Positions 461 through 59,954 of a stretch of 64,000 bases of DNA are shown one piece after another. The stretch covers positions 992,001-1,056,000 of the forward strand of contig NZ_JARVCO010000012.1 of the NCBI RefSeq assembly GCF_034531395.1. The letters are read 5' to 3'. The number at the start of each line of letters is the position of its first letter. Positions within the stretch are counted from its first letter, which is position 1. The stretch comes from Pontiella agarivorans. GTDB taxonomy: Bacteria; Verrucomicrobiota; Kiritimatiellia; Kiritimatiellales; Pontiellaceae. The notes beneath the pieces were generated by a model. It made no database searches and was not told the origin of the DNA. It was given only the letters and a program-made list of their open reading frames with translations. A program made the translations under genes and the position numbers.

Positions 461-1795
461 ATGAAATGTTGCGTTGTCACTTTAGGTTGTCAGATGAATC
501 AGTCGGATTCCGAACGGATCCGCAGTGTCATTGAGAAATACGGTTATGAAATGACCGATTCCGAGGAGGCGGCGGATCTGATTGGTATTGTGGCGTGTTC
601 GGTGCGGCAGAAAGCAATTGATAAGGTTTACAGTAAAATTGCAAAGTGGAACAGATGGAAGAATGAGCGTCCGCTGGTGACGTTTGTTTCCGGCTGTATT
701 CTGCCGGCCGATGAAGTGAAATTCCTGAAATTGTTTGACCTGGTTTTCCGGATGAACGAACTCCCGGATCTGCCTAAAATGCTGCAGCAGTGCGGGGTGG
801 CGACTGAGTTTTCAGTCCGGAATCCGGTTGCCGATATTGAGCGGCATGATGAGCGTACCGATTTCTGGCAGGTGGATCCGACCTACAGTTCGGACTTTGA
901 AGCTTTTGTGCCGATCCAGAACGGGTGTGATAAGTTCTGTTCGTTCTGTGCGGTGCCCTATACCCGTGGCCGCGAGGTTTCCCGCCTGAGTGGTGATATT
1001 CTGCAGGAAGTGCAGAAGCTGATTGACCGAGATGTGAAGTCGATCACGCTGCTGGGGCAGAATGTGAACTCCTATGGATTGGATAAAAAAGGCGAAGAAA
1101 TTTCATTTGCCGAACTGTTGCGCAAAATCGGTGAGCTGGGTAAGGCCAGCGGCAAGGGTTTATGGGTGTATTTTACCTCGCCGCATCCGCGGGATATGAC
1201 GAGGGATGTGATTGAAGCGATTGCCGATTACGAGTGTCTCGCCAAGCAGATTCATCTGCCGGTGCAAAGCGGCGATGAAAAACTGCTGCGTAAAATGAAC
1301 CGGAATCACAGTATCGAGGATTATCTTAAAATTGTGGACGACATCCGCGAGCTGCTGCCGACGGCTACGATCTTTACCGATATCATTGTCGGCTTTACCG
1401 GCGAGACCGATGAACAGCTGGAAAATACGGCGAAGCTGATGCTGGGTGTGAAGTTCAATATGGCCTATATCGCCAAGTATTCGCCGCGTGTCGGTGCGCG
1501 CTCTGCCCGTTGGGAGGATGACATTACACCGCAGCAGAAGAGCGAACGACTGGCGCGCCTGACGGAAGTGCTCAAGCGTACGTCGCTGGAACACAATGAA
1601 TCGATGATCGGTAAAAAATATAAAGTGTTGGTTGAGCGGGTTGATCCGCGTAAGGAAGGGGCTGTGCAGGCCCGGACCGAAGGCAAGCTTCCTGTTCGTA
1701 TTACCGATGCGCCGGAAGATCTGGTGGGCACGTTCCAAACGGTGGAAATCACCCGGGCTTCCGAGTTATCGCTGACCGGTCGGCTGGTTGCCTAA
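461..1795 (+). CDS. miaB: tRNA-2-methylthio-N6-dimethylallyladenosine synthase MiaB
   Basis: This radical-SAM methylthiotransferase adds a methylthio group to N6-isopentenyladenosine at position 37 of tRNAs that read U-starting codons. The 444 residues match the family length. The N-terminal UPF0004 domain carries its three cluster-binding cysteines at C10, C46 and C79. The radical-SAM motif is C156-xxx-C160-xx-C163, within NGCDKFCSFCAVP. The SPHPRD segment and the C-terminal TRAM domain are also recognisable. The start ATG gives the expected CCVVTLGCQMN beginning. The stop codon overlaps the convergent tadA stop by 4 bp. MiaB is preferred over the paralogues MtaB and RimO because of the CSVR motif after C46 and the overall match, but subfamily assignment rests on memory of the family. 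It is probably co-transcribed with the upstream reductase. Confidence 0.93.
   Translation: MKCCVVTLGCQMNQSDSERIRSVIEKYGYEMTDSEEAADLIGIVACSVRQKAIDKVYSKIAKWNRWKNERPLVTFVSGCILPADEVKFLKLFDLVFRMNELPDLPKMLQQCGVATEFSVRNPVADIERHDERTDFWQVDPTYSSDFEAFVPIQNGCDKFCSFCAVPYTRGREVSRLSGDILQEVQKLIDRDVKSITLLGQNVNSYGLDKKGEEISFAELLRKIGELGKASGKGLWVYFTSPHPRDMTRDVIEAIADYECLAKQIHLPVQSGDEKLLRKMNRNHSIEDYLKIVDDIRELLPTATIFTDIIVGFTGETDEQLENTAKLMLGVKFNMAYIAKYSPRVGARSARWEDDITPQQKSERLARLTEVLKRTSLEHNESMIGKKYKVLVERVDPRKEGAVQARTEGKLPVRITDAPEDLVGTFQTVEITRASELSLTGRLVA
1733..1747. repeat. TTCCA-N5-TGGAA palindrome, in miaB
   Basis: Exact arms with core AACGG, near the 3' end of miaB. This core is the only one ending in a purine, so it may be a chance copy. 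Confidence 0.5.
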
Positions 1796-2307
1796 TTCGC
1801 AGCGGAATCTTCGTCGATTCGACGCTGTTTTTTGCGATCTTTGGAGGCCTGTCGAAGTTTCTGGAAAAATTCCTGCATAACAAACCGGCATTCACCTTCA
1901 AGCAGGCCGGCTTCAACTTCAACCGCATGGTTTAGATCTGCTTCGTTGAGAATATTGAATTTCGATGTTGCGCCGCCGCGGACCGGATCGGTCATACCCC
2001 AGACCACTTTTTTCATGCGCGAAAGAACCAGAGCGCCGGCACACATGGGGCAGGGTTCTTTGGTGACATACATCACGGCATCGTTGAGTCGCCAATTGCC
2101 GACGGTTTGCGTGGCCTGGGTGATGGCGAGCACTTCGGCATGTGCGGTGGGGTCGTTGAGCGTTTCGGTCTGGTTGTGCGCTTTTCCAATTACTTCGCCG
2201 TTGAGCACAATTACGGCCCCGCAGGGCACTTCACCTTCTTCGGCTGCCAGCCGGGCTTCGCGCAGGGCCATGTGCATGTAGAATTCATCTTCTGAAAAAT
2301 CGTCCAT
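1792..2307 (-). CDS. tadA: tRNA-specific adenosine deaminase TadA
   Basis: TadA deaminates adenosine 34 of tRNA-Arg(ACG) to inosine, an essential step for reading CGN codons. The 171-residue protein has the zinc-dependent cytidine/deoxycytidylate deaminase core: HAE at residues 56-58 (zinc ligand His and the proton-shuttling Glu) and PCPMC at 85-89 with the two zinc-ligand cysteines. The C-terminal tail is basic (KDRKKQRR), as expected for tRNA binding. It converges with miaB with a 4-bp overlap of the two stop codons and lies 45 bp downstream of the lipid kinase gene on the same strand. Confidence 0.93.
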   Translation of the reverse strand: MDDFSEDEFYMHMALREARLAAEEGEVPCGAVIVLNGEVIGKAHNQTETLNDPTAHAEVLAITQATQTVGNWRLNDAVMYVTKEPCPMCAGALVLSRMKKVVWGMTDPVRGGATSKFNILNEADLNHAVEVEAGLLEGECRFVMQEFFQKLRQASKDRKKQRRIDEDSAAN

Positions 2308-2352
2308 AAGGAATATTGCTTACTGTGTATTGCGGGCGGGGTAAAGTGAAAA

Positions 2353-3234
2353 TCAGAGCGAGGGGATAATTACATTCAGCGCAGAGGGGAGCACTTGAAT
2401 ATGCACATCGCCCTCGGTCTGGTACAGTTCTCCGTCAATCTGAATGGGGGTATCGTTTTCCCGCCTGACCGTCATTGTTTTGAAGTTTCGGTTGGTTACG
2501 AGATGATGTTGGTGGAAGGTTTTTTCAATGAAACGGTGGACTTGCGCAAGAACCAGGGGCATGTCTTTGGTTTCAATGGCCACCAGTTCCAGGTTGCCGT
2601 CGTCTGCTTTGGCATCGGGGGCCACAATTACATCGCTGCCGAACTGGGTGAGATTGGCGATGGTGAAAATCAGCGGATGTTTAAGTTCCAGCTGCTCGGA
2701 ATCGATTTCCACATGAAACGGCTGGGCTCGATATTCCAGCAGTTGCTGCGCTCCGGCGAGGACGTAGGGGACGATGCCGCGGAAAGGATATTTTTCGAAG
2801 GTTTCCACGAGCGCGGCGTCCCAGGCCATGGAGCAGGTGACAAAGAAGAGGCGGTCATTGACTTTGCCGACATCAATTTTTTCGGTATGTCCGTTGAGCA
2901 GGGCTTTGGTGGCGGGGCCCGGCTGAAGCGGAGTTTTGAAGTGCCGGGCGAATCCGTTGCCGCTGCCCGCGGGAAGTACGCCGAACCGGACATCGGTTCC
3001 GACCAGTTCAGAGCCGATGGTGTTGACCATGCCGTCGCCGCCTACAACCAGCACGGTATTTACCCCGCGTTCCACAGCACGGTGGACTTTTTCTATGCCG
3101 TCTTCGGCCGATTGGCTGAATTGGAAATAGACATCGTGCCACGGGTCATCCCACGTTTCCTGTACAGCTGTAATATAGCGGTGTGGGCCGCCTACGCCGG
3201 ATTTTGGGTTTATGAGTACGAGAACCTGTTCCAT
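2353..3234 (-). CDS. diacylglycerol/lipid kinase family protein (YegS/DagK type)
   Basis: This is a soluble lipid kinase of the DAGKc superfamily, which phosphorylates diacylglycerol or a related lipid with ATP at the membrane surface. Visible motifs are NPKSG at residues 9-13, the nucleotide-binding GGDG at 65-68, and PAGSGNGFAR at 88-97. The length (293 residues) matches YegS/BmrU/DgkB-type enzymes. The C-terminal half is the beta-sandwich domain typical of the family, with an IDGE segment close to the end. It lies upstream of tadA on the same strand. The actual lipid substrate cannot be determined from sequence; recycling of diacylglycerol or phosphatidylglycerol-type turnover are the common roles. 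Confidence 0.85.
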   Translation of the reverse strand: MEQVLVLINPKSGVGGPHRYITAVQETWDDPWHDVYFQFSQSAEDGIEKVHRAVERGVNTVLVVGGDGMVNTIGSELVGTDVRFGVLPAGSGNGFARHFKTPLQPGPATKALLNGHTEKIDVGKVNDRLFFVTCSMAWDAALVETFEKYPFRGIVPYVLAGAQQLLEYRAQPFHVEIDSEQLELKHPLIFTIANLTQFGSDVIVAPDAKADDGNLELVAIETKDMPLVLAQVHRFIEKTFHQHHLVTNRNFKTMTVRRENDTPIQIDGELYQTEGDVHIQVLPSALNVIIPSL

Positions 3235-3376
3235 TATTTCATCCGTTTTCCAGTCTTCGGAAAAGGGTGTAGCACAGAATGCCCCGCTTGTGAACCTCGG
3301 TGATAGATTATCATTACAGTATTTTTTTTGATTTGGAGTGTCCGGGTTTTATGGAAGAGGGCGTCTATTATTGTCT

Positions 3377-5017: not shown

Positions 5018-6533
5018 ACGTTCCGTATTGATCGGGCTCGCTGTGGCACTGGTTGCTGTTGCCGTTCTGCTGCTGAATCCGGGAAATGATACGAATAAAA
5101 TCGATATGGATGAGGCCAACCTTTGCCAGGTTCAGCAGGGGGATCTGGTGGTAAGTATTTTGCAGTCGGGCGAACTGCGAGCAAAGAAGAGCCGGGATAT
5201 TCAGAATCAGGCCTATCGCGATGCCAAGATTACCTCGATTGTGGATGACGGCGCTTTTGTGACCAATGGACAGCTGCTGTTTGAGTTGGAATCGGCTCAG
5301 CTTCAGGAGCGCTATCTTGATCAGCAGTCCGATGTTGCCGAAGCGGAAGCCAGTCTGAAGCTGGCCATAGAAAATCTGGCCATCGCGAAGCTTAAAAATG
5401 CAACCGATCTGGAAACCGCAAAAATGAAAGCGGAGCTGGCCCGGATGGACCTGCAGAAATATGTGGACGTGGAATATCAGCAGCAGGTGGATAAGGCACA
5501 GTCGGAGATTTATCTCGCCGAACAGGAGCTGAAAAAGGCCCGTAATGAACTGGCCGGAACGCAGGAGCTTTATGATAAAGGCTATTCCAACCGGACGGAG
5601 CTGGAGGCCGATCAGCTGGGTGTGGAGCGTAAAGAGGTTGAGGTGAAAAATAAAAAAGCCGACCTCGAAATCCTGAAAAACTACACGCATATCAAGCGGC
5701 AGATGGAACTGAAAAATGCGGTTTCAAATGCGGTGTCAGCGCTGGAACGCATGAAAAAATCCCAGTCAGCGGATATCCAGAGTAAAGAAGCCGGCATCGA
5801 GTCCAAAAAGACCCGACTGGAAATTGAACGCAATCAGCTCGCGACTAAAGAGACCGAATTTTCCAATACCAAGGTTTATGCCGATTTTGACGGTCAGGTT
5901 TTTTATCCCAAGGAACGACACCGCCCGAAAATTGAAAAAGGGGCCACTGTTCAGATGCGTCAGAAAATCCTCTCATATCCGGATCTTTCGGCTTGGAATC
6001 TGCAGGTGGGTATTCCGGAAGCGATGATTGATAAGGTGTCGGTTGGGCAGCATGCCGTCGCGACGCTGGATGCGTTGCCGGGGCTGATCCTTGAGGGCAA
6101 TATTGAGAAGGTCAGTGCTGTTCCGGACTCCCAGAACTGGTTCAGTTCCGGTGTTAAGACGTATACGATTATGATCGATGTCACCTCCGAAACCAATACT
6201 CAGCTTAAGCCGGGAATGTCGGCTACCGTTGAAATCGTTACCGATGAGCTCAAAAACGTTCTTTATGTACCGATTCAGGCGGTGGTCTCGCGTGACGGAA
6301 CCCATTATGTTTATGTGGTGAATCACGGGCGTAAAGAGCTGCGCGAAGTTGAAATCGGTAAATTCAACACGTATTCCATCGAGATTGTTTCCGGTCTGGA
6401 AGTTGGAGAAGAGCTTTTACTTTATGCAGAAGTTGAGCTCGAAGCCGATGCTCAGCTCAAGAAAAGTCCACTTGATGTTGAGGAAAAAGGCCGGGCGGAA
6501 AACTCGAAATCAGAGGCCCGGGATAAAGCATGA
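4986..6533 (+). CDS. HlyD/MacA-family periplasmic adaptor subunit
   Basis: Membrane-fusion protein that bridges the inner-membrane ABC transporter and the TolC-like channel. A single N-terminal membrane anchor lies at about residues 12-30 (SVLIGLAVALVAVAVLLL). After it come a lipoyl/barrel-sandwich half, a very long coiled coil (roughly residues 90-280, rich in E, K, A, Q and L), the second barrel half, and a C-terminal beta domain of the MacA/CusB type. At 515 residues it is longer than most MacA proteins, mainly because of the hairpin. ATG 4986 is chosen because AAGGGA lies just upstream at suitable spacing. It ends in an ATGA overlap with the ABC ATPase gene, which implies translational coupling. 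The exported substrate is unknown. Confidence 0.87.
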   Translation: MSNPKKKLLSKRSVLIGLAVALVAVAVLLLNPGNDTNKIDMDEANLCQVQQGDLVVSILQSGELRAKKSRDIQNQAYRDAKITSIVDDGAFVTNGQLLFELESAQLQERYLDQQSDVAEAEASLKLAIENLAIAKLKNATDLETAKMKAELARMDLQKYVDVEYQQQVDKAQSEIYLAEQELKKARNELAGTQELYDKGYSNRTELEADQLGVERKEVEVKNKKADLEILKNYTHIKRQMELKNAVSNAVSALERMKKSQSADIQSKEAGIESKKTRLEIERNQLATKETEFSNTKVYADFDGQVFYPKERHRPKIEKGATVQMRQKILSYPDLSAWNLQVGIPEAMIDKVSVGQHAVATLDALPGLILEGNIEKVSAVPDSQNWFSSGVKTYTIMIDVTSETNTQLKPGMSATVEIVTDELKNVLYVPIQAVVSRDGTHYVYVVNHGRKELREVEIGKFNTYSIEIVSGLEVGEELLLYAEVELEADAQLKKSPLDVEEKGRAENSKSEARDKA

Positions 6534-7231
6534 GCGAGGCGATCGTTGAACTTAAAAGCTCCGTTAAGGAATACGTTAACGGTTCGCTTCGGGTGACGGC
6601 TATGCGGGAGATTGATCTCCGTATTGACCGGGGAGAGTACGCCGTCATTATGGGGGCATCCGGTTCGGGAAAATCCACCTGTCTGAATATCCTGGGCTGT
6701 CTGGACCGTCTGACCTCTGGAACGTATCTGCTGGGCGGACAGGATGTGTCGGATCTGAATGATGACGAGCTTTCCGAAATCCGTTCTAAGCGGCTGGGCT
6801 TCATCTTTCAGTCCTATAATCTGATTCCACAGCTCAACGTGCTCGAAAATATTGAAGTTCCGCTGTTTTATCAGGGGGTTCCGGAAGCGCAGGCCCGTAT
6901 GCAGGCGGAAAAGCTGGCGAAACGTATGGGGCTGGAAAAACGGCTCAAACATAAACCTATGGAACTGTCCGGCGGCCAGCAGCAGCGGGTGGCCATTGCG
7001 CGATCGCTGGTGTGTGATCCGATTCTCATGCTGGCCGATGAACCGACGGGTAATCTTGATTCCAGGACCGGTGAGGAGATTCTGGAACTGCTCGATGAGC
7101 TTCATGCCGAAGGGAAAAGTATTGTCATGGTTACGCACGATGATGAGATTGCGCATCGGGCCCAGCGCGTTGTCCGGTTCATGGATGGAAAAATTATTTC
7201 CAACGACTGGAATGGAGCCGCGAAAGTATGA
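6530..7231 (+). CDS. ABC transporter ATP-binding protein (MacB/LolD type)
   Basis: Cytoplasmic ATPase of the efflux pump. All canonical motifs are present: Walker [10 protein letters not shown] at residues 42-50, Q-loop Gln at 94, signature LSGGQ at 146-150, Walker B ILMLADE ending at 171, and the H-loop His at about 203. The 233-residue length is that of a stand-alone MacB/LolD/FtsE-like domain. It overlaps the adaptor gene by 4 bp upstream and the permease gene by 4 bp downstream. In E. coli MacB the ATPase and permease are one polypeptide; here they are two genes, which is common outside Proteobacteria. Confidence 0.93.
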
Positions 7232-10820: not shown

Positions 10821-11717
10821 ATGTCAACATTACGCGAAATTGGTGAACATGCGGCTCTTCGTAAAATTCTTCCCCTGCTCGGAACCCATCCGGAACTTCG
10901 GATCGGGGCTGGCGATGATTGCGCCGTGTGCCGGTTGCCGGGCACCGGAGCGGATCAGGTGTTCACTACCGATCCCGTGATAGAAAATATACATTTCCAA
11001 TCGTTGGAAAATCCCATGCGTATTGGTCATAAAGCCGTTGGTCGGGTACTCAGCGATATCGCGGCCATGGGCGCGCGGCCCCAGTGGATTTTGGTGAATG
11101 TGGTGGCCCCGCCGGAGCTGGAAATCCATGATCTGGAAAAAATGTATAAGGGCATGATGGATCTTTGTAACCGTTTCGGCGCTTCGGTCATTGGCGGAGA
11201 TCTGGCACGCGGTCCCGCTCTGGAGCTCCACATTTTCGGGACCGGCCTGCTGCCGGAAAAATCGGCGCTGTTGCGTTCCGGGGCAAATGAAGGGGATTCA
11301 ATTTTGGTTACAGGGCCGCTCGGATGCAGTTTTGAATCCGGAAAGCATCTCGATTTTATTCCGCGTGTGGATGAGGGGTGCTTTCTGCGGGAAAGCGGTT
11401 TGGTGAATGCACTGATGGATATCAGCGACGGGCTGGCAACGGACCTGCGGCATATTCTCCAGCAGAGCGGCGTTGGTGCAGTATTGGACGGCCAGGCTGT
11501 TCCAAAGGCAGGAACGCTGAAGCAGGCGTTGTTTGACGGCGAAGACTTTGAGCTCCTGCTTACCGCGCCCGATCCGGAAGAGCTCCGTTTCCAATGGCAG
11601 GAAAAATTCGGCACGGTACTTCCGGTGATTGGAAGAGTTACAGCGGAAACAGGTATACTGCGGCTGGATGGGCAGGTGCTGGAGGCCAAAGCCTTTGAAC
11701 ATTTTTCACCGGAATAG
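10821..11717 (+). CDS. thiL: Thiamine-monophosphate kinase ThiL
   Basis: ThiL phosphorylates thiamine monophosphate to the cofactor thiamine diphosphate in the cytoplasm. It belongs to the PurM/SelD ATP-grasp-like superfamily: the GDDCAV metal/nucleotide motif lies near residue 43, the TTDP segment follows, an AMGARP motif is at about 90, the GGDLA loop lies near 125, and MDISDGLATDL in the second half binds substrate. The frame is open upstream to an ATG at 10785; I choose ATG 10821 because the protein then begins MSTLREIGEHA, as ThiL normally does. Neither start has a strong ribosome-binding site. The gene holds one exact and one near-exact copy of the dispersed 15-bp palindrome. Confidence 0.9.
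   Translation: MSTLREIGEHAALRKILPLLGTHPELRIGAGDDCAVCRLPGTGADQVFTTDPVIENIHFQSLENPMRIGHKAVGRVLSDIAAMGARPQWILVNVVAPPELEIHDLEKMYKGMMDLCNRFGASVIGGDLARGPALELHIFGTGLLPEKSALLRSGANEGDSILVTGPLGCSFESGKHLDFIPRVDEGCFLRESGLVNALMDISDGLATDLRHILQQSGVGAVLDGQAVPKAGTLKQALFDGEDFELLLTAPDPEELRFQWQEKFGTVLPVIGRVTAETGILRLDGQVLEAKAFEHFSPE
10995..11009. repeat. TTCCA-N5-TGGAA palindrome, in thiL
   Basis: Exact arms, core ATCGT; read in frame it encodes FQSLE. Confidence 0.85.
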
Positions 11718-11737: not shown

Positions 11738-11752
11738 TTCCAATGGTTGGAA
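11738..11752. repeat. TTCCA-N5-TGGAA palindrome, intergenic after thiL
   Basis: Exact arms, core ATGGT, 20 bp past the thiL stop. No T-run follows, so it does not look like a factor-independent terminator. Confidence 0.85.
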
Positions 11753-15836: not shown

Positions 15837-15851
15837 TTCCAGTGATTGGAA
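15837..15851. repeat. TTCCA-N5-TGGAA palindrome, intergenic upstream of hisG
   Basis: Exact arms, core GTGAT, 83 bp upstream of the hisG start and 59 bp before tRNA-Arg, so it falls in the shared control region. Confidence 0.85.
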
Positions 15852-17383: not shown

Positions 17384-18913
17384 ATGAATTCCATGTCCAA
17401 CGGTAGCATATCCGGAGTCTGGAAATGGGGAACGTTTGATGTCTGTCATGTTGCCAGAAAACTGCCGCGCGGTTTTTCCATTGAGCCGGTGGAGGAGGCT
17501 GTGCTGACCGGGCAGATGCTGGACACCTTCAATGAAGTGATGCGGGAAAGCGGCTGCGTACTGTTGCAGACCGAAAAAAAACTGGTCCTCATCCATCTGC
17601 AGACCGGGAAAATTGATGAACAGACATTTTCCGGAAGCTGGAAGTTTGCGGATGAATTGAATGCCGGAGCTGTTCAATTTCAATGTCTGGAAAAATCCGA
17701 GCTCCGGGCTTTTATACCGTTGGGGGAGCTGACTGTTCAGTGGCGGCACTGGAGGGGGTGTGATGAGCTGCAGAAAACGGTGATGCGTTTAGTGAGTGTT
17801 GAATTCCTCTGCGGTGAAAAGCGGAGGGTCTGGCTGAGCGGTGAGGCATTGCGCGGTTATGAATCCGAAACGGCGAGGATTTTACGGGCATTGGAAAAGG
17901 CGGGGTTTGAAGCGGGCGATATGGAAAAAATTCCAATGTCTGGAAGCGGTCGGTCGGCCCATACCCCCAAGTCGATTGTGGCTATTGAGGCGGATTGGCC
18001 GATTTTTGAAACGGCGAATCAGATTGTACTAAGGGGGCTGGATATTGCCCGGCGGAATGAAGCCGGTGCGGCGGATGATGTTGATACTGAATTTCTGCAC
18101 GACTACCGGGTGAGCCTGCGCCGTGTCCGTTCATTACTTAGTCTTTTTAAAGGGGTGTATGACGATGGATTTTCGGAGGAAATGAAGTCTGAACTGAGGA
18201 ATGTGATGAAGCGAACAAACCGGCTGCGCGACCTGGATGTATATCTGCTGGGCCGGAAAAAATATTATGCACGGGTTCCAGAGTCGGTGCATGCGGGACT
18301 CGATATTATGTTCGGGATGATTGAGGCAGAGCGGTTGAGCGAACAGGAAAAAGTCGCCGCGTTTTTCCGGTCCTCGGAATACGATCGGCGGATGGAGCAC
18401 GTTCGGGCGAAGTTCCGGTGGTTCGAAAACCGGGGCCGAGGTTCCCGGGCGGCTATGCCGACGCTGAAGTTTGCGAGGCGGGTAAGCCGAAAACGGTATG
18501 AGCGGATTGTTGAAATTGCGCCGGTGATTTCAGAAAATGCGCCTGATGTTGCGGTCCATGAACTTCGGATTCAGTGTAAAAAGTTCCGTTATCTGCTGGA
18601 GTTTTTCGCGCCGCTTTTTCCGGCGGAAGAAAATAAGGTGCGGATCAAATCGCTGAAGAGATTGCAGGATGTGCTCGGGCGGTTTAATGATTATTCAGTG
18701 CAACGCGAGGCGCTGTCGGTTTTGGTGAAAACGCATCCGGTTCGAGGGAAAAAAGGGCTGATGCTGGCGGAGAGTGCGGGCGCGCTGGAGGCAACGTTGT
18801 TTCAACTGCAGTTGCAGGTCCGGCAGGATGTGGAAAAGGGGCTGGAAGAATTCGTGAAACCGGAGCCGGCCCGGGTATTCGAAGCATTATTTTCAAAAGG
18901 ATATACGGAATGA
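17384..18913 (+). CDS. CHAD domain-containing protein with CYTH-like N-terminal region
   Basis: CHAD domains are helical bundles with conserved histidines and basic residues that bind inorganic polyphosphate. The CHAD part covers about residues 210-500 and shows the hallmarks: HDYRVSLRRVRSLLSLF with His and Arg for phosphate binding, RLRDLDVYLL, VHELRIQCKKFRYLLEFF, then KRLQDVLGRFNDY. The first 190 residues look like a beta-rich, divergent CYTH (triphosphate tunnel) region, but the EXEXK motif is not obvious, so that label is tentative. The start is uncertain: the frame opens at GTG 17345, ATGs lie at 17384 and 17393, and none has a clear ribosome-binding site. The stop overlaps the ParA start by 4 bp (ATGA). 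It carries one exact and one near copy of the 15-bp palindrome. Confidence 0.85.
   Translation: MNSMSNGSISGVWKWGTFDVCHVARKLPRGFSIEPVEEAVLTGQMLDTFNEVMRESGCVLLQTEKKLVLIHLQTGKIDEQTFSGSWKFADELNAGAVQFQCLEKSELRAFIPLGELTVQWRHWRGCDELQKTVMRLVSVEFLCGEKRRVWLSGEALRGYESETARILRALEKAGFEAGDMEKIPMSGSGRSAHTPKSIVAIEADWPIFETANQIVLRGLDIARRNEAGAADDVDTEFLHDYRVSLRRVRSLLSLFKGVYDDGFSEEMKSELRNVMKRTNRLRDLDVYLLGRKKYYARVPESVHAGLDIMFGMIEAERLSEQEKVAAFFRSSEYDRRMEHVRAKFRWFENRGRGSRAAMPTLKFARRVSRKRYERIVEIAPVISENAPDVAVHELRIQCKKFRYLLEFFAPLFPAEENKVRIKSLKRLQDVLGRFNDYSVQREALSVLVKTHPVRGKKGLMLAESAGALEATLFQLQLQVRQDVEKGLEEFVKPEPARVFEALFSKGYTE
17931..17945. repeat. TTCCA-N5-TGGAA palindrome, in the CHAD gene
   Basis: Exact arms, core ATGTC. 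A one-mismatch copy (TTTCA arm) with the same core lies 253 bp upstream at 17678. Confidence 0.85.
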
Positions 18914-20107: not shown

Positions 20108-20788
20108 ATGAAAGTTCTGAGAATGATTTTAATGCTGGTTGTCGCCGCAGGTGCTGCCGTCGGAGAGGAAAATGTGATTGAGCTGACGGCATCGAAAGAT
20201 GTGTTTTTTCGCAGTAATCACCGGACCAAGAACAACGGAGCCTCGAAGGCCCTGTTGTTGGCAGGGATGCCGGGAGTTACCACGCTGGTGGGGTTTGATC
20301 TGAGCGGCGTGACAAACGAAATTGAATCCGCGGAATTTTATTTCCAAATTCTAGAGGACTCCGATACGCCGCTTTCGCTGACAATTGCCACGATGGCGCT
20401 GGGTGAAAGCAATGGGCTCTGGGTTGAGGGGGGTGGAGATCTGGGGTTGCAGGGACGTAATGCAAAAGTCGGGGAATCGACTTTTCAGTGGCGGAGTTTC
20501 CGGGATGAAGACTGGGTGGATGCAAACGGACGTTCCGTTAAAAACCTGTTGGATTCCAGACTTTGGAATGAAGTTAAGCAGATTTCGGATGTAGAATGGG
20601 AGGCGGAGCGCCGGGTCGGCATTACGGTTGATCGCGCCCAGCTCGAAGAAGTCCGGAATATGGAAGTGCCGGTGATAACCTTCGGTCTTTGGGGAACCAA
20701 GGGGAATGGGGTTTATAAAATCGGTTCCAAAGAGTCGGATCAGCCAGCCCGGTTAATGTTGAAGGTTATTCCATCGGAAGCGTTCTGA
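20108..20788 (+). CDS. Exported DNRLRE/CBM96-like domain protein
   Basis: A signal peptide of about 20 residues (hydrophobic RMILMLVVAAGAAVG) precedes a single beta-sandwich domain. The pattern is that of the DNRLRE/CBM96 family: an N-terminal 'FRSNHRTKNNGASKALLLAG' strand, a LVGFDLSGV strand, a central LWVEGGGDLG loop, TFQWRSF, and a C-terminal FGLWGTKGNG segment. Such domains usually sit beside polysaccharide lyases or surface enzymes and bind carbohydrate; here the domain is alone. ATG 20108 is preferred over GTG 20102 because AGGTGAGG lies at the right distance. It follows the Nudix gene on the same strand, but there is no obvious functional link. Confidence 0.7.
   Translation: MKVLRMILMLVVAAGAAVGEENVIELTASKDVFFRSNHRTKNNGASKALLLAGMPGVTTLVGFDLSGVTNEIESAEFYFQILEDSDTPLSLTIATMALGESNGLWVEGGGDLGLQGRNAKVGESTFQWRSFRDEDWVDANGRSVKNLLDSRLWNEVKQISDVEWEAERRVGITVDRAQLEEVRNMEVPVITFGLWGTKGNGVYKIGSKESDQPARLMLKVIPSEAF
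20554..20568. repeat. TTCCA-N5-TGGAA palindrome, in the DNRLRE gene
   Basis: Exact arms, core GACTT, reading through codons for SRLWN. Confidence 0.75.
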
Positions 20789-23489: not shown

Positions 23490-24929
23490 ATGAAAGTAAT
23501 TTTTGTAAGTAGTGAAATTGTACCATTCGCATCGACGGGGGGTCTAGGAGATGTTTTGGCGGCTTTACCCCGGGCTCTGATGGAGCAGGGGGTGGAAGTG
23601 ATACGTTTTCTTCCGCTGTACCAGTCCATTGATCGCGAAAAATTTGGCATTGGACCTTGCGATTTTGATATTCATATTCCGCTGGGCAGCAGTTGGTTTC
23701 AGGGTACGGTCTGGAAAAATGAGTGGCAGGGGGTGACGACATTTTTCATCCAAAGCAATGCCTTTTTTGAACGTCCAGGTATTTACGGTGCCCCGAATCA
23801 CGGTTACGGCGATAATTTTGAGCGTTTTCTTTTTTTTCAGAAAGCAGTGGTGAGGCTGATCGATGAATGGGAACTGAAGCCGGATATCGTGCACTGCAAC
23901 GATTGGCAGGCCGGGCTGGTTCCGATGCTGCTGTATCACGGAATCGATGGGAATTTCCGTAATGGACGGGAAAAAACGCTGATGACGATTCATAATCTGG
24001 CGCATCAGGGCTGGGCACCGGCAGAAAAGTTTTATATGACGCAGTTGCCGGACAGCTGCTATACGATGGAGACGCTGGAGTTTTACGGCGAAATTAATTC
24101 GCTCAAGGGTGGGCTTGTTGGTGCCAGTGCGATTAACGCCGTCAGCCCGACCTATGCCAAGGAAGTGAAAACCGCGGAATTCGGCTGTAAACTTAACGGG
24201 GTGCTCTATCACCGGCAGGATGTGTTGCACGGTATTCTGAACGGCATCGATTATGAGCGCTGGAATCCGGAAACCGATACACATATTCCGGCGAACTATT
24301 CAGCAAAGGATCTGTCCGGAAAGGCGGAGTGTAAAGCCGCTCTTCAGAAAGTTTGCGGCTTCCGTGTAAACCCCGATGTTCCGCTGCTCGGAATGATTTC
24401 CCGTATGGTTCCGCAGAAGGGAATTGATCTGCTTTTTGATTCCATCAAACCGATTGTGGAAAGCGGCGCACAGCTGGTGATTCTCGGGACCGGTGATGAG
24501 CATTATGAAAGCGCCTGCCGGAACTGGGCCGATCGCTGGCCCGAAAATGTGTGTGCGTGGATTGAATTTTCAAATACTAAAGCGCACCGGATAGAAGCCG
24601 GTGCTGACCTGTTCCTGATGCCTTCCGAATTTGAACCATGTGGACAGAACCAGCTCTATTCCATGCGGTACGGAACCATTCCGGTGGTCCGGTCGGTCGG
24701 AGGATTGGAAGATTCCGTGACCGATTATTCCGATAAAGGTGGAACTGGTTTCAAGTTCAGTGAATTTTCAGCGGAGGCCTTTTTCCAGTGTTTGGAACGC
24801 GCGCTGAAGATTTATAAGAATCCCAACCGCTGGAAAACGCTGATGAAGCGCGCCATGCGGCAGGATTTTTCTGTTACGCATATGGCCAACGATTACATTG
24901 CACTCTACAGAAAGATCATTGGAAACTGA
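23490..24929 (+). CDS. glgA: Glycogen synthase GlgA (ADP-glucose type)
   Basis: Adds glucose from ADP-glucose to growing alpha-1,4-glucan. The 479 residues have the GT5 N-terminal catalytic domain and the GT1-type C-terminal domain, with a GT-B fold. The C-terminal nucleotide-sugar site shows LLGMISRMVPQKG, the FLMPSEFEPCGQNQLYSMRYGT block and the RSVGGLEDSV segment. One oddity: the family's KxGGL motif near the N-terminus (Lys15 in E. coli) reads STGGL here, so the substrate-contacting Lys is Ser15. It could be a subfamily trait. No glgB, glgC or glgP is adjacent. It has a purine-poor leader and starts 20 bp after a GTG-rich region shared with rnr. Confidence 0.92.
   Translation: MKVIFVSSEIVPFASTGGLGDVLAALPRALMEQGVEVIRFLPLYQSIDREKFGIGPCDFDIHIPLGSSWFQGTVWKNEWQGVTTFFIQSNAFFERPGIYGAPNHGYGDNFERFLFFQKAVVRLIDEWELKPDIVHCNDWQAGLVPMLLYHGIDGNFRNGREKTLMTIHNLAHQGWAPAEKFYMTQLPDSCYTMETLEFYGEINSLKGGLVGASAINAVSPTYAKEVKTAEFGCKLNGVLYHRQDVLHGILNGIDYERWNPETDTHIPANYSAKDLSGKAECKAALQKVCGFRVNPDVPLLGMISRMVPQKGIDLLFDSIKPIVESGAQLVILGTGDEHYESACRNWADRWPENVCAWIEFSNTKAHRIEAGADLFLMPSEFEPCGQNQLYSMRYGTIPVVRSVGGLEDSVTDYSDKGGTGFKFSEFSAEAFFQCLERALKIYKNPNRWKTLMKRAMRQDFSVTHMANDYIALYRKIIGN
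24783..24797. repeat. TTCCA-N5-TGGAA palindrome, in glgA
   Basis: Exact arms, core GTGTT; in frame it encodes FQCLE. Confidence 0.85.
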
Positions 24930-24934: not shown

Positions 24935-25426
24935 ATGGCCGGTAAAAGGCACAAAAAGTATGGGTATGCAGACCGATTCCGTTTTTGTGTTTCTTCTGTC
25001 TTTTCAGGGCTTAAAATCCTCCCTTGGAGAAAGAAAGAGGCACCGCACCTGAAGTCCGGTCGCTGGGGGGAGAAGGTTGCGGTCAAATTCCTGCGTTCCA
25101 AACATTGGAAAATTATCGGAGAACGGGTTCGTTCGGGAAAACACGATGAGCTCGATATTGTGGCCGACGACGGGAACGCTCTGGTTTTTGTCGAAGTCAA
25201 AACGCGTAAAAATGAAGATTTCGGCCGTCCGTTTTCTGCAGTTAACAACGCGAAGCGAAAACGTCTGTCCCGTGCTGCGGTGAACTACCTGAAAAAGAAA
25301 AACGCCAAACCCGATTATATCCGGTTTGACGTTATTGAGGTGATCGGCGAGCCCGGAGGTGATCCTGAAATTCGGCATATTGAAAATGCCTTTTCGCTGG
25401 ACCCGGCCTATTCCCTTTGGTGGTAG
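24935..25426 (+). CDS. UPF0102/YraN-family endonuclease-like protein
   Basis: A 163-residue protein with a basic, possibly membrane-seeking N-terminal stretch, then the YraN core: GRWGEKVAVKFL, the DELDIV motif (Asp of the PD-(D/E)XK fold), FVEVKTRK (the E-x-K catalytic pair) and RFDVIEV. The family shares the restriction-endonuclease-like fold, but its biological role is unclear; it has been linked with DNA repair or uptake. It begins 6 bp after glgA, so it is likely in the same transcript, and ends 3 bp before the convergent sodN stop. It carries an exact copy of the 15-bp palindrome. Confidence 0.85.
   Translation: MAGKRHKKYGYADRFRFCVSSVFSGLKILPWRKKEAPHLKSGRWGEKVAVKFLRSKHWKIIGERVRSGKHDELDIVADDGNALVFVEVKTRKNEDFGRPFSAVNNAKRKRLSRAAVNYLKKKNAKPDYIRFDVIEVIGEPGGDPEIRHIENAFSLDPAYSLWW
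25096..25110. repeat. TTCCA-N5-TGGAA palindrome, in yraN-like gene
   Basis: Exact arms, core AACAT, read in a different frame from the FQxLE copies (SKHWK). Confidence 0.85.
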
Positions 25427-28338: not shown

Positions 28339-28911
28339 CTAACGTTCCTTTGGAACTTTCCTGCATTTTGTTTCTGATACGATGTGGTCTACGGGCCGGT
28401 CGTGCAGGTCCACCGGAACGGTTTCCACATATTGGAAATCAAAACATATGCCGGTTGTAATTCCCGGAAAACCGGACAGCATCCGGTCATAATACCCGCC
28501 GCCGCGGCCCAGTCGGTTTCCGGAGGGGTCGAACGCAACGCCGGGGACGGCGATCAGGTCAATGTCCGAAAGCGGCAGTAAACACGGAGAAACAGGTTCC
28601 TGAATGCCGTAATTTCCGATTTCGAATGCCGTGGATGCCGTAATTTCCGCCATTTCATAAATCCGGGTTTCCGGGTTGAAAACCGGGATGGCTGTCCGTT
28701 TTCCGAGCGACCAGCAGATCTCAAATAAAAGTTCCAGATTCACTTCGCCGCCGATGGCCTTATACAGCGCGACTGTTTCCGACGATTGGAACTCTTCCAA
28801 TGATTGGAGATTTTCGACTATCCGAGTGCTGGTTTTTTCCAGCCATTGGGGATCCAGCACGGTACGTTTGGTTGCGATGGTTTTTCGGATTTTTTGTTTG
28901 GTCAGGGTCAT
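28339..28911 (-). CDS. ygfA: 5-formyltetrahydrofolate cyclo-ligase
   Basis: Converts 5-formyltetrahydrofolate to 5,10-methenyltetrahydrofolate with ATP. The 190-residue protein shows the family blocks: VALYKAIGGEVNLELL, GKRTAIPVFN, the PGVAFDPSGNRLGRGGGYYDR nucleotide-binding segment, and a C-terminal DRPVDHIVSE. The frame extends to 28959; ATG 28911 (MTLTKQKIRK) is a normal family start. The gene is unusual in holding one exact and two one-mismatch copies of the 15-bp palindrome. In Proteobacteria ygfA is the neighbour of the 6S RNA gene; here a structured RNA candidate lies two genes away beyond rarA. Confidence 0.92.
   Translation of the reverse strand: MTLTKQKIRKTIATKRTVLDPQWLEKTSTRIVENLQSLEEFQSSETVALYKAIGGEVNLELLFEICWSLGKRTAIPVFNPETRIYEMAEITASTAFEIGNYGIQEPVSPCLLPLSDIDLIAVPGVAFDPSGNRLGRGGGYYDRMLSGFPGITTGICFDFQYVETVPVDLHDRPVDHIVSETKCRKVPKER
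28433..28447. repeat. TTCCA-N5-TGGAA palindrome, in ygfA
   Basis: Exact arms, core CATAT. Near copies with one mismatch lie in the same gene at 28777 and 28795. Confidence 0.75.
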
Positions 28912-31366: not shown

Positions 31367-32000
31367 TTTTTTCCAATGCCTGGAAAATGTGTTCGGCACA
31401 TTTGGTTTTACTGATTGTTCCCCAGGGTTCGAAGGCGTCGTTTTTTGCGGATAGAAAACTGAAAGAGCCGGACTCCGCACCGAGTGTGGCCGGGGTGTTT
31501 AAAACGATACCGTCGAGATTTTTGGATTTCAGTTTCCGTCGGGCGTTTTTTTCTCCCTCAGCGGTCTGAAGTGCAAACCCGAGGGCGATCTGGTTTTCAG
31601 TTTTTGAAGCGCAGAGGGTTTTTGCAATATCCGGTGTGGCCTTCAGGCGAAGAATGAGCTCTTCCTCCGATTTGGCCATTTTTTCGGTTTGTTTTTCTTG
31701 CGGGGTATAGTCGGCCACCGCAGCGGCAAAAATAATTACATCTGCAGCGTGGAAATGGCTCTGTGCGGCAACGAGCATTTCTTCGGCTTCCGTCACCCGA
31801 ACAACCTGTCCCGCACTTCCAAGGTCTGGAAGATGGGTCGGAGCAACCGGACCGGAAATGAAAATAATTTGATCGTTGTGACGCAGGGCCTCTTCCGCGA
31901 TGGCCTTGCCCATGAGTCCGCTGCTGGCATTGCCGATAAAACGAACGGGGTCGATATATTCGTGGGTAGGTCCGGAGAGAACAAGCAGGGTCCGGTTCAT
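31350..32000 (-). CDS. coaB: Phosphopantothenate-cysteine ligase, stand-alone CoaB
   Basis: Second of the two activities usually fused as CoaBC/Dfp: joins 4'-phosphopantothenate and cysteine with CTP. The 216 residues start LLVLSGPTHEYIDPVRFIGNASSG, the CoaB nucleotide-binding motif; AAAVADY and the ALGFALQTAEGEKNARRKL block follow. It overlaps coaC by one base (TGATG), so the two subunits are translationally coupled. The 3' end overlaps the convergent GtrA-like gene. Two exact 15-bp palindromes lie inside, one of them within the last 15 codons. Confidence 0.92.
   Translation of the reverse strand: MNRTLLVLSGPTHEYIDPVRFIGNASSGLMGKAIAEEALRHNDQIIFISGPVAPTHLPDLGSAGQVVRVTEAEEMLVAAQSHFHAADVIIFAAAVADYTPQEKQTEKMAKSEEELILRLKATPDIAKTLCASKTENQIALGFALQTAEGEKNARRKLKSKNLDGIVLNTPATLGAESGSFSFLSAKNDAFEPWGTISKTKCAEHIFQALEKISREK
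31371..31385. repeat. TTCCA-N5-TGGAA palindrome, end of coaB
   Basis: Exact arms, core ATGCC; minus-strand reading encodes FQALE. It lies 5 bp past the GtrA-like stop. Confidence 0.85.
31817..31831. repeat. TTCCA-N5-TGGAA palindrome, in coaB
   Basis: Exact arms, core AGGTC, the same core as the copy at 55000. Confidence 0.85.
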
Positions 32001-33981: not shown

Positions 33982-33996
33982 TTCCAATGTCTGGAA
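33982..33996. repeat. TTCCA-N5-TGGAA palindrome, intergenic between pyrH and the GH10-like gene
   Basis: Exact arms, core ATGTC. It ends 20 bp before the preferred start codon of the GH10-like gene, so it sits in the 5' leader or promoter. Confidence 0.85.
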
Positions 33997-41551: not shown

Positions 41552-41623
41552 GTGCTTGGTGCGGAAACGGGTATGCAGACCGCTTAAACTGCGGACATTT
41601 TAAAAAAAACAGGCAGATACAGA

Positions 41624-54565: not shown

Positions 54566-54982
54566 ATGAGTGCGCATAAAATTAAAGAACTGATTCGGAA
54601 GAACGATAATCTGGGCAATTATCTGGGCGTCAAATTAACCGAAGTCAGTGAAGGGCGGGCATACGCCGAACTGAAAATTGAAAAATGCCACCTGAACGCG
54701 GCGGGCGTTACCCATGGAGCCTCGATCTTTGCGCTGGCGGATATTGCGTTGGCGGCGGCATCGAACTCCTATGGCAATGTGGCCTTGCTGACCAACGGCA
54801 ATATTCAGGTTTTTCATGCCACGCCGCTGGGCGACACCCTCACCGCGAAAGCCAAGGAAGTTTCCGCCAGCCGCAAGCTGGCGCACTACCGGATTAAGGT
54901 AACCAATCAGGCCGGCGACCAAATTGCGGTCTATAATGCGACGGTGTATAAAACCAGTACGCCGCTGCCCGACAGCGAATAG
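54566..54982 (+). CDS. PaaI-family hotdog thioesterase
   Basis: A 138-residue hotdog-fold protein of the PaaI/YdiI branch: start MSAHKIKELIRKNDNLGNYL, the active-site helix GVTHGASIFALADIALAAAS, LTNGNIQVFHATPLGDTL and the terminal ATVYKT. PaaI hydrolyses aryl-CoA or stalled intermediates in phenylacetate catabolism. It is the second thioesterase in this unit (the first at 51938 is YbgC-like). It lies 109 bp after iorB. Two palindromes and a terminator follow within 70 bp, so it is probably the last gene of the rightward transcript. Confidence 0.88.
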   Translation: MSAHKIKELIRKNDNLGNYLGVKLTEVSEGRAYAELKIEKCHLNAAGVTHGASIFALADIALAAASNSYGNVALLTNGNIQVFHATPLGDTLTAKAKEVSASRKLAHYRIKVTNQAGDQIAVYNATVYKTSTPLPDSE

Positions 54983-54997
54983 TTCCAATCTCTGGAA
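54983..54997. repeat. TTCCA-N5-TGGAA palindrome, tandem copy 1 after the PaaI-family gene
   Basis: Exact arms, core ATCTC, starting with the base after the stop codon. A second copy begins 17 bp later. Confidence 0.85.
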
Positions 54998-54999: not shown

Positions 55000-55014
55000 T
55001 TCCAAGGTCTGGAA
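55000..55014. repeat. TTCCA-N5-TGGAA palindrome, tandem copy 2 after the PaaI-family gene
   Basis: Exact arms, core AGGTC, two bases after copy 1 and 7 bp before the terminator stem. Confidence 0.85.
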
Positions 55015-57916: not shown

Positions 57917-57925
57917 CGATTCCCC

Positions 57926-58336: not shown

Positions 58337-59437
58337 ATGATACCCAAAAAATATATTTCCGATCTGCGGGTCTACGAACCCGGAAAACCCATCGAAGAAG
58401 TGGCGCGCGAACTGGGGTTCGACGATATCGCCGAAATTGTGAAAGTGGCATCCAATGAAAATGAACTCGGTCCGTCACCGCTGGCGGCGGAAGCCATGCG
58501 GGAAGCCATTCCGGAAATGCACCGCTATCCGGACGGCGGCGCATTTTATCTGAAACAGAAATTGGCGGAAAAGCTTTCGGTTGACCCCGAAAACCTTCTG
58601 TTCGGCTGCGGGAGCAATGAGCTGATTGTTTTCCTCTGCCATGTATTTATGGAGCAGGGAAAAAATCTGATTATGGGGGCCGAAGCCTTTGCCGTCTATT
58701 TTCTGGCCAACGCCCTCTACGGCGGCGAAACCATTCGCGTTCCCATGCCGGAGCACGTGCACGATCTCGATGCCATGCTCGCCGCCATCACCCCCGAAAC
58801 CCGTCTGGTCTGCATCTGCAATCCCAACAACCCGACCGGAACGATGCTTCCGCCCGAAGCCATCGACGCCTTCATCGAACAGCTGCCGGATCACGTTGTC
58901 GCGGTTTTCGACGAAGCCTATTTTGAAGTCATGCCCGATGCCATGAAACCCGATGTGCTCAAACACATCCGCGCCGGGAAAAAGAATATCATTGTGCTGC
59001 GCACCTTTTCCAAAGCCTACGGTCTCGCCGGGCTGCGCATCGGCTATGCCGTCGCGCATCCCGAATTGATCAACCTGCTCAACAAAGTGCGCCAGCCCTT
59101 TAACGTCAATCTGATGGCGCAATCAGCGGCCCTGGCGGCGCTCGATGATGTGACGCATATGGTTGAAACCCGCGAAATGGTTTTCCAGGGATTGGAATTT
59201 TTCCAAGCCGAACTTCCAAAGCTTGGAATCGAGACGGTTCCGTCGGGCGCGAACTTTATTCTGGTGAAGACCGGAAACGGACGGGAAATCTTTGAAGAAC
59301 TGCAGAAACGCAAGGTGATTGTGCGTCCGATGGATCCCTATGGATTGCCGGACTATATTCGCATAACTATCGGCACCCCAGAGCAGAATCAATTGATGCT
59401 CGACGCGCTGAAATCGGTCATGGCGGATAAAAGTTAA
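58337..59437 (+). CDS. hisC: Histidinol-phosphate aminotransferase HisC
   Basis: A PLP-dependent aminotransferase acting on imidazole-acetol phosphate; the class also accepts aromatic substrates. The 366 residues have VASNENELGPSP, FGCGSNELI, the CNPNNPTGTMLP motif, DEAYFEVM and the PLP lysine segment TFSKAYGLAGLRIGYAV near residue 228, plus PSGANFILVK. An AAGGAGC box precedes the ATG. Only hisG (14.9 kb) is otherwise seen in the window, so the his pathway is split. Given its neighbourhood beside the aryl-acid regulon, a role in aromatic amino-acid transamination should not be excluded. Two exact 15-bp palindromes lie inside. Confidence 0.93.
   Translation: MIPKKYISDLRVYEPGKPIEEVARELGFDDIAEIVKVASNENELGPSPLAAEAMREAIPEMHRYPDGGAFYLKQKLAEKLSVDPENLLFGCGSNELIVFLCHVFMEQGKNLIMGAEAFAVYFLANALYGGETIRVPMPEHVHDLDAMLAAITPETRLVCICNPNNPTGTMLPPEAIDAFIEQLPDHVVAVFDEAYFEVMPDAMKPDVLKHIRAGKKNIIVLRTFSKAYGLAGLRIGYAVAHPELINLLNKVRQPFNVNLMAQSAALAALDDVTHMVETREMVFQGLEFFQAELPKLGIETVPSGANFILVKTGNGREIFEELQKRKVIVRPMDPYGLPDYIRITIGTPEQNQLMLDALKSVMADKS
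59183..59197. repeat. TTCCA-N5-TGGAA palindrome, in hisC
   Basis: Exact arms, core GGGAT; in frame FQGLE. Followed 16 bp later by another copy. Confidence 0.85.
59214..59228. repeat. TTCCA-N5-TGGAA palindrome, second copy in hisC
   Basis: Exact arms, core AAGCT, which makes all but one central base pair palindromic. Confidence 0.85.
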
Positions 59438-59455
59438 CTTTTTTTTCATCACCCC

Positions 59456-59483: not shown

Positions 59484-59503
59484 GTCCGCTCCTTTGAACG
59501 AAT

Positions 59504-59580: not shown

Positions 59581-59605
59581 TTTTTTCAAAGGAAACGATC
59601 CATTC

Positions 59606-59682
59606 GGGCGACTAGCTCAGTTGGCTAGAGCATCTCGTTTACACCGAGAGGGTCGGCGGTTCGAGCCCGTCGTCGCCCACCA
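59606..59682 (+). tRNA. tRNA-Val (anticodon TAC), copy 2
   Basis: Identical to copy 1 through D-, anticodon- and T-arms but with acceptor GGGCGAC/GTCGCCC, so four of seven pairs differ with compensation. Encoded CCA. 25-bp spacer from copy 1. Confidence 0.97.
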
Positions 59683-59688
59683 TCTTTC

Positions 59689-59718
59689 AGGCTGAAACTT
59701 CGGTTTCAGCCTTTTTTT
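59689..59718 (+). terminator. Intrinsic terminator of the tRNA-Val pair
   Basis: AGGCTGAAAC, tetraloop TTCG, GTTTCAGCCT: a perfect 10-bp stem followed by a run of T. Confidence 0.95.
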
Positions 59719-59954
59719 GTGTCCGTAAGGGATTCCCCGGAGAAGGCGCAGCGTAAAAAAACTCCGCCCGCCCGATCCGCCTTCTTTCCAAGGGTTGGAA
59801 TTTGCTGAAAAGCGGGTCTGAATCTATCGTTTAAACCGTTTATCCTAGAAACGGATAGGAACCACGGATACATACGGATCAACAAAGATATGGGAACAGG
59901 ATGGGATAATCCGGTGGTGCTCCAGCAGGTGAGCATTTTGCATGTTCTAAGCAC
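59719..59954. other. Degenerate intergenic DNA after the tRNAs
   Basis: No gene seen. It holds one 15-bp palindrome (59786) and the word ACGGATAC repeated as GGAT-spaced units near 59850. It leads into the broken restriction-modification remnant. Confidence 0.5.
59786..59800. repeat. TTCCA-N5-TGGAA palindrome, intergenic after tRNA-Val
   Basis: Exact arms, core AGGGT. Confidence 0.85.

Follow-up and report, generated by a model that had tools for sequence, protein, structure and literature searches.

We studied a 64,000-nucleotide stretch of the Pontiella agarivorans genome (contig NZ_JARVCO010000012.1, positions 992,001 to 1,056,000; hereafter, the window), and a short interrupted palindrome, TTCCA-N5-TGGAA, that recurs both within and between its genes. 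The source genome, that of strain NLcol2 (G000 in our set; 4,436,865 bases in 12 contigs), belongs to a marine bacterium, a cultured isolate that is deposited in culture collections, according to the part of PMC10880615 used here. Among 80 RNase Y loci, the nine nearest to its own belong to Pontiella, Pontiellaceae or Kiritimatiellales. There are 18 exact copies in the window, compared to 0.08 expected (100 dinucleotide shuffles, largest count 1), and 1146 in the whole genome, compared to 5 for the reversed control pattern AAGGT-N5-ACCTT. With modest confidence, we read the palindrome as a genome-wide site in duplex DNA for a putative cooperative dimeric protein, whose role would be to organise the chromosome rather than to regulate promoters.

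The earlier note on this DNA had counted 17 exact sites; 16 of its coordinates are exact, the site given at 28433 lies at 28423, and one site, at 7198, had been overlooked. The sites are listed below without strand, with genes from a custom gene caller that also supplied the gene content of a 464-kb stretch of the same genome. Their state is given in three relatives: G040, which is close (84% identity) and poorer in the motif; G017, which is motif-rich (77% identity to P. agarivorans); and G009, also motif-rich.

1733..1747: TTCCAAACGGTGGAA, in gene 494-1795 (radical SAM / TRAM domains); exact in G017, not in G040
7198..7212: TTCCAACGACTGGAA, in gene 6530-7231 (ABC transporter ATPase); absent from the earlier list; exact in G040
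10995..11009: TTCCAATCGTTGGAA, in gene 10821-11717 (thiL); not in G040
11738..11752: TTCCAATGGTTGGAA, intergenic, 20 bp past the thiL stop; exact in G040
15837..15851: TTCCAGTGATTGGAA, intergenic; exact in G040
17931..17945: TTCCAATGTCTGGAA, in gene 17384-18913 (CHAD domain)
20554..20568: TTCCAGACTTTGGAA, in gene 20132-20788; exact in G040
24783..24797: TTCCAGTGTTTGGAA, in gene 23580-24929 (starch synthase type); not at this place in G040, G017 or G009
25096..25110: TTCCAAACATTGGAA, in gene 24935-25426; one arm mismatch in G017 and G009
28423..28437: TTCCACATATTGGAA, in gene 28339-28911 (5-formyltetrahydrofolate (5-FTHF) cyclo-ligase); exact in G040, not in G017 or G009
31371..31385: TTCCAATGCCTGGAA, in gene 31350-32000 (DFP domain); exact in G017, not in G040 or G009
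31817..31831: TTCCAAGGTCTGGAA, in gene 31350-32000 (DFP domain); exact in G017, not in G040 or G009
33982..33996: TTCCAATGTCTGGAA, flanked by divergent genes; exact in all three relatives
54983..54997: TTCCAATCTCTGGAA, immediately follows the stop of gene 54566-54982; forms a 17-bp pair with 55000; exact in G009, with a single mismatch in G017
55000..55014: TTCCAAGGTCTGGAA, second of the 17-bp pair (partner 54983); exact in G017 and G009
59183..59197: TTCCAGGGATTGGAA, in gene 58337-59437 (aminotransferase); forms a 31-bp pair with 59214; exact in both G017 and G009 but not in G040
59214..59228: TTCCAAAGCTTGGAA, in gene 58337-59437, 31 bp from its partner 59183 and in a different reading frame; exact in both G017 and G009 but not in G040
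59786..59800: TTCCAAGGGTTGGAA, intergenic

Among ten window genes near sites that were scanned, Pfam matches were obtained for seven, mostly metabolic, and for the other three there were none. Genes for MutS, an exopolyphosphatase-type protein and polyphosphate kinase are adjacent to one another (37276-43726), with the CHAD-domain protein apart at 17384-18913. The 21-kb stretch 33997-54982, which includes the first three of these genes, has zero exact palindromes.

Geometry and placement of the palindrome

The distance between the two arms is fixed. Exact copies in the window number 18 at N5, zero at N0 to N4 and at N6, and one at N7; with one mismatch allowed, N5 gives 22 and the remaining spacings tried within N0 to N11 give 1 to 6. 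The ten sites with one arm mismatch that had been reported earlier were all found (53009 being 53008), the full one-mismatch list amounting to these 22. In 464 kb of the genome, we counted 128 exact copies at N5 and 0 to 4 at each other spacing from 0 to 11, and the palindrome tops the z-scores among the spaced four- and five-base dyads tested there. N5 alone is enriched; equal frequencies at N4 and N6, which the earlier note had named as grounds for abandoning the motif, were not observed.

The 128 sites of the 464-kb stretch give a fuller motif, TTCC(A/G)-R-N-S-N-Y-(T/C)GGAA. In their logo, a T at position -1 (59%) is followed by TTCCA, a purine at position 6 (93%) and any base at position 7; the centre is occupied by G or C in 90% of sites, and the second half mirrors the first, so that the R-NNN-Y middle proposed earlier is borne out and sharpened. 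Sites with a single deviation most often show A5>G (44 of 138), T1>A (23 of 138) or C3>T (18 of 138). The half-sites TTCCR are separated by one helical turn, and there is no conservation of the flanks beyond one or two bases. Such graded positions are more like those of a site bound by a protein than those of a restriction site.

The palindrome acts as DNA and not through the encoded protein, and probably not through RNA. Genes contain 12 of the 18 window sites, with every frame used (6, 3 and 3), and the other six are intergenic, in line with the split described in the earlier note; in the 464 kb, 85 sites are in genes (frames 41/31/13) and 43 between them. Forty synonymous-codon shuffles gave a mean of 9.6 genic sites (maximum 18) against the 85 observed, a count far from the codon-aware expectation near which, according to the earlier note, the observation would be refuted. 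It should be noted that the baseline is itself inflated, because the proteins carry an imprint of the motif: the peptide FQxLE occurs 45 times, compared to 1.25 from residue frequencies, with 4 occurrences of the control FQxLD and 0 of YQxLE. The use of all three frames and the excess over synonymous shuffles thus uphold the claim that protein constraint does not explain the palindrome. Chance and codon bias were considered as causes and ruled out by the dinucleotide shuffles, the reversed control and the synonymous-codon shuffles. On the sense strand, variants of the G.U type, with which a hairpin in RNA could still pair, and of the A.C type, with which it could not, are about equally common (28:26 and 8:11); therefore, RNA pairing is unlikely to be the thing kept.

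The larger stretch of 604 kb contains 162 sites, 109 of them genic (203 per Mb in genes) and 53 intergenic (787 per Mb between genes). Of the 53 intergenic sites, 22 lie no more than 40 bp from a stop codon, compared to 10.2 expected, and 12 lie near starts, compared to 11.4 expected; this placement does not look like that of a promoter regulon. A short-range excess aside, sites are randomly spread along the 604 kb, and regular chromosomal spacing was rejected on this ground. In G028, a genome of the same order, the centre base shows no strand bias relative to GC skew (41:41), and in two Pontiella stretches the centre G lies on the G-rich strand in ratios of 76:40 and 23:11, slightly beyond base skew alone (P 0.024 and 0.12, pooled 0.008). 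The suggested function as a strand or partition mark is thus doubtful: the random spread and the even ratio in G028 speak against it, and a weak strand preference may exist in Pontiella.

Site density does not vary monotonically with the identity of genes to G040, being 106 per Mb below 50%, 270 at 50-70%, 525 at 70-85% and 204 at or above 85%; it is 189 per Mb in genes without a match. A 45-kb block (G000:C12, about 835000-880000), which has no alignment to the G040 stretch, contains 1 site compared to 12 expected. This site-poor block is rich in large same-strand open reading frames (ORFs).

Helical phasing, distribution and conservation

Neighbouring sites lie about 17, 22 or 31 bp apart. 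The phasing is clearest in G028 (3.88 Mb, one contig), where 42 of the 43 pair distances within 110 bp, taken from 20 spread stretches, are near whole helical turns (22, 31-32, 41-42, 52-53, 62-63, 84, 94-95 and 104 bp; the exception is 91 bp), with a phase score R of 0.90 at 10.5 bp. In P. agarivorans itself, 40 pairs are 16-46 bp apart, compared to 9.2 expected, and 16 of the 40 are at 30-32 bp, compared to 0.9 expected. The phase scores of three Pontiella genomes are 0.33 (G000), 0.30 (G017) and 0.30 (G001), with p of 0.013, 0.012 and 0.099, respectively. These scores are weaker partly because of the pair class at 17 bp, a distance that does not correspond to complete turns; they rise to 0.41, 0.49 and 0.42 once pairs at 16-18 bp are excluded. 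Some 17-bp pairs form perfect 32-bp palindromes (G000:C7:430415; G017:C99:10059 and 19235).

In other families, the sites form arrays of 3-7 copies, mostly intergenic, with spacings such as 31,32,31 or 22,30,31,31,31,22. The spacers are mostly unrelated and mostly 16-17 bp long, the centre of the motif is variable, and few sites are clustered in the P. agarivorans genome. A CRISPR array, for comparison, has a constant repeat, unique spacers and cas genes. Several arrays start just past a stop codon, the flanking genes being judged by eye. A variant palindrome, TTTTCCAYWGYGTGGAAAA, was seen in the motif-poor Pontiella species G015, in three arrays with spacings of 22 and 31 bp near contig starts (L192 262-369, L193 50-179 and L194 from 74; contigs C98, C99 and C250); one is upstream of an ORF resembling an ECF sigma factor and one upstream of an ORF resembling a DUF499 ATPase (names by eye). 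This variant may be a dialect of the system.

Enrichment is patchy and, within the sampled phylum, limited to one class. In a table of 40 genomes, the 25 of the genus have 5 to 2297 copies, the 14 of a second family of the same order (f2) have 181 to 1091, and the single genome from elsewhere in the class has 6. In a hand count of 288 genomes of the phylum, at least 50 copies were found in 23 of the 85 same-class genomes outside the order, scattered over families, and none of the 191 genomes of other classes exceeded 30. Motif-rich genomes have about 240-520 sites per Mb. Copy numbers jump within genera (271, 221 and 209 versus 29 in f11/g17; 179 versus 18 in f8/g14), which suggests that the palindrome has been lost repeatedly. 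It should be noted that G099, a 2.4-Mb genome from another class of the phylum, contains the reversed pattern AAGGT-N5-ACCTT 55 times, compared to 0-15 in the other tabulated genomes; this excess is perhaps another iterated palindrome.

Conservation was tested with the 162 sites of the 604-kb stretch, using same-phase windows nearby as controls. Between motif-rich species, sites are kept at orthologous positions. Aligned P. agarivorans sites are exact in 9 of 14 cases in G017 (control 7.8%, P 1.5e-7) and in 7 of 12 in G009 (10.2%); the reciprocal comparisons give 8 of 18 for G017 sites (5.8%) and 7 of 14 for G009 sites (8.8%), and 7 of 12 sites are exact both from G017 to G009 (4.9%) and from G009 to G017 (6.3%). 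In the nearer relative G040, 18 of 68 P. agarivorans sites are exact, compared to 20.8% in the control (P 0.16), that is, no constraint is detectable; for G017 sites aligned to G040, the numbers are 2 of 16 and 5.3%. Within 460 kb, G040 has 42 sites of its own (91 per Mb), of which 25 align to P. agarivorans and 18 of those are exact there; 2 of 4 are exact in G017. On a plain reading of the alignments, sites appear to be held in motif-rich species and to drift in G040, whose copies would be mostly relics. The check on orthologous sites put forward in the earlier note thus gave a divided answer, with conservation in G017 and G009 and no excess over the control in the closer G040.

Sites differ between relatives mainly by substitution. 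Of the 128 sites in the 464 kb, 61 could be placed on G040 (67 were unaligned); one of these has an internal gap and the rest are substituted or identical. By this evidence, the sites aligned to G040 are not inserted elements. Internal gaps were found in 1 of 14, 1 of 12 and 3 of 18 sites in more distant comparisons, and in 4 of 16 for G017 to G040.

The proposed reader and competing explanations

Among the roles proposed earlier for the palindrome, a protein-binding site is the best reading, judging from its geometry, its action at the DNA level and its phasing. According to this model, a dimeric protein, probably with a helix-turn-helix (HTH), would read the half-sites TTCCR one turn apart, with additional preferences for T(-1), R6 and S8. 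Dimers bound next to each other would in many cases share one face of the DNA, at about 22 and 31-32 bp, with a tight packing at 17 bp as well. Such a protein would read the roughly 240-520 sites per Mb of motif-rich genomes, in genes and between them, without preference for regions upstream of genes; therefore, a chromosome-wide role is favoured over promoter control, and this role could be nucleoid architecture or a self-mark. Sites would be made by point substitution and kept by selection as long as the protein is present, and they would decay at the neutral rate where the protein was lost, as we infer for G040.

Several points weigh against this model. The distances between sites of one array are not independent, and Pontiella is less strongly phased than G028. 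Conservation was measured on few sites (12-18 aligned), drawn from overlapping sets in one region, and internal gaps become more frequent as the compared genomes become more distant. A biased uptake or a methylation-driven process predicts dynamics similar to those of an architectural role. In addition, searches among Lrp, IclR, HTH_3, REP-associated tyrosine transposase (RAYT) and ComEC proteins gave no partner gene matching the motif pattern. Lrp/AsnC proteins do not track the motif, either by presence in genomes of the class or in the helix comparison described below. IclR-type HTH proteins do not track it either: G122, with 467 sites, has 0 HTH_IclR matches, and the matches in G033, G034, G027 and G030 are only weak. 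HTH_3 proteins showed no tracking by copy number or best scores, a comparison of unaligned members in which a tracking orthologue could hide. The associated DNA-binding gene for which the earlier note recommended looking was thus sought among Lrp/AsnC, IclR and HTH_3 proteins, with no match to the motif pattern.

We also compared 604 kb of the genome (about 14%) with stretches of G040, G017, G009 and G001. For nine genes, the motif-rich relatives' stretches contain the closer counterpart or the only one; by eye, one of these genes is sigma-factor-like and none resembles an HTH repressor. A separate gene in a gap of this comparison resembles, by eye, a LacI/XylR-type regulator.

The best-surviving alternative, which we nevertheless regard as rather unlikely, is a DNA-uptake sequence for self-recognition: competent cells would prefer DNA bearing the motif, and recombination would spread it by molecular drive, as in the case of the DNA uptake sequences (DUS) and uptake signal sequences (USS). 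The presence of sites in coding and non-coding DNA, their non-coding excess, and their gain and loss by point mutation match the account in the part of PMC1939737 used here, drift after the loss of drive would fit the G040 result, and the 45-kb block that does not align to G040 is poor in sites. The competence gene comEC is present, but ComEC occurs in 35 of 36 genomes whatever their motif density, including G004, G019 and G040. Phased arrays are not expected of uptake sequences, and arrays of 3-7 mostly intergenic copies at helical turns were found here. Known uptake sequences, as described in the same part of PMC1939737, are not palindromes, whereas the present motif is.

Less probable still is an extended methyltransferase target enriched by methylation-dependent repair or by selection, in the manner of the highly iterated palindrome HIP1. 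The inner core CCA-N5-TGG has the geometry of the type II recognition sequence of PflMI/Van91I. In addition, highly iterated palindromes (HIPs) are palindromic and frequent, and are gained and lost along with cognate methylases, as described in the part of PMC4390886 used here. Against this explanation, the specificity is graded over 15-17 bp, with the substitutions A5>G, T1>A and C3>T and a centre of G or C, and a methylase alone does not explain the helical phasing of neighbouring sites.

We find it about equally improbable, if not slightly more so, that the palindrome is a transcription terminator, a roadblock or an RNA hairpin at gene ends. The excess of intergenic sites near stop codons and the arrays that begin just past a stop would agree with such a function, but about two thirds of the sites (109 of 162) are inside genes, and the balance of G.U-compatible and A.C mismatches gives no sign of selected RNA pairing. 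A roadblock formed by a protein is a possible variant of this explanation.

It is quite improbable that the reader is the Lrp/AsnC-like protein of these genomes. This candidate was attractive because Lrp sites are palindromes of 13-17 bp with centres two or three helical turns apart (in the part of PMC2995911 used here), and proteins of this type, of about 160 aa, occur in one or two copies in 58 of 63 genomes of the class. Between G000 and G040, 4 of 6 differences in the Lrp-like protein fall in the presumed recognition helix (by eye), and a helix that tracks the motif was first suspected from this pair; further sequences removed the suspicion. In the comparison, which covered 40 of 50 proteins and left out 10 loci including those of motif-rich G009, G027, G028 and G033, the presumed helix varies widely among species, and GTSAEDV in the motif-rich G001 and G017 is almost the GTSADDV of the drifting G040. 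Moreover, the protein is present in the motif-less G004, G019, G011 and G020, no site array lies beside its gene in the 27 loci searched whole (of 30), and known Lrp sites have AT-rich centres (same part of PMC2995911), unlike the G or C centre found here in 90% of sites.

Finally, a repetitive extragenic palindrome (REP) spread by RAYT (Y1) transposases, the mobile miniature repeat of the earlier note, is largely refuted and very improbable: the palindromic form, the many copies, the frequent location 3' of genes and the Y1 transposases in 37 of 42 genomes would suit it, but insertion-like differences are rare among the sites aligned to G040 (1 of 61 gapped; up to 4 of 16 in more distant comparisons), the flank is conserved no further than one or two bases, and Y1 genes do not track the motif, with no Y1 match in the scans of G088 (61 sites) and G181 (193 sites) and 21 Y1 in G056 (18 sites).

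Comparison with known systems and significance

A description of the palindrome was not found in the open-licence literature, searched for the exact pattern and for palindromes or inverted repeats in this lineage. The likeness to HIP1 and to uptake sequences drawn in the earlier note is apt as a comparison of dynamics. HIP1 and the alternate HIPs of cyanobacteria (Elhai 2015; PMC4390886, in the part used here) are likewise palindromic, very frequent and patchily lost within a phylum, as isolated short motifs. The present motif is a genome-wide over-represented palindrome that mostly stands as an isolated short motif, as a HIP does; it differs as an interrupted palindrome of 15-17 bp with a fixed N5, graded positions and arrays at whole turns. 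The DUS/USS have about 1000-2000 copies per genome, which is similar to the present motif. In Neisseriaceae and Pasteurellaceae, they too occur inside and between genes and arise by point mutation (PMC1939737, in part), and 65% of the copies in H. influenzae and 35% of those in N. gonorrhoeae are in ORFs. The present motif shares the dispersal in coding and non-coding DNA and the evolution by point mutation, but it is palindromic, stands in phased arrays and is unlinked to the presence of ComEC.

Operators of cooperative dimeric regulators, namely the Lrp family (PMC2995911) and IclR group 1 (PMC8222616), resemble the present motif as 15-bp dyads whose half-sites are about one turn apart and which recur in tandem at two or three turns. 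The IclR group-1 consensus, GKTYCRYW3-4RYGRAMC (PMC8222616), has the same half-site order, TTYCR...YGRAA, as the present motif. The spacing of two or three turns is found here, along with a 17-bp class; the AT-rich centre is not, and no HTH_IclR match was obtained in motif-rich G122. In contrast to both kinds of operators, the present motif has over 1000 sites, mostly in coding DNA, without promoter bias, and neither family (nor the Lrp helix) tracks it. The 18-nucleotide palindrome of Caldithrix abyssi (PMC5317091, in part) is also short and isolated, without longer repeat context, and favours gene ends; 38 exact copies are described, mostly intergenic and with a clear strand preference, compared to more than 1000 mostly genic copies here, for which strand bias is absent in G028 and weak at best in Pontiella.

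Chromosome-organising sites of the MatP/Noc type are also dispersed palindromes read by one protein. The sites of MatP and Noc number in the tens and are restricted to one domain of the chromosome; the present motif has about 240-520 per Mb in motif-rich genomes and is randomly distributed over the 604 kb tested. Few bacterial sequence codes of about a thousand copies are understood, namely Chi, the KOPS (FtsK orienting polar sequences) and the DUS/USS, and HIP1 is still debated.

We tentatively extend the proposal of a cooperative protein to that of a chromosome-wide positional code. The protein would read more than 1000 palindromes, selection on the DNA would rewrite protein sequence, as FQxLE suggests, and the code would have been lost several times independently in one class, with all stages of erasure represented among its genomes. 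The system offers a cultured host, a close relative that is apparently losing the motif, motif-rich and motif-poor sister species, and a helical-phasing signature; thus, the reader protein and its job could be sought by standard means. If our reading is true, the sites that are kept or eroded in relatives of P. agarivorans would point to a protein that reads the motif across the genome.

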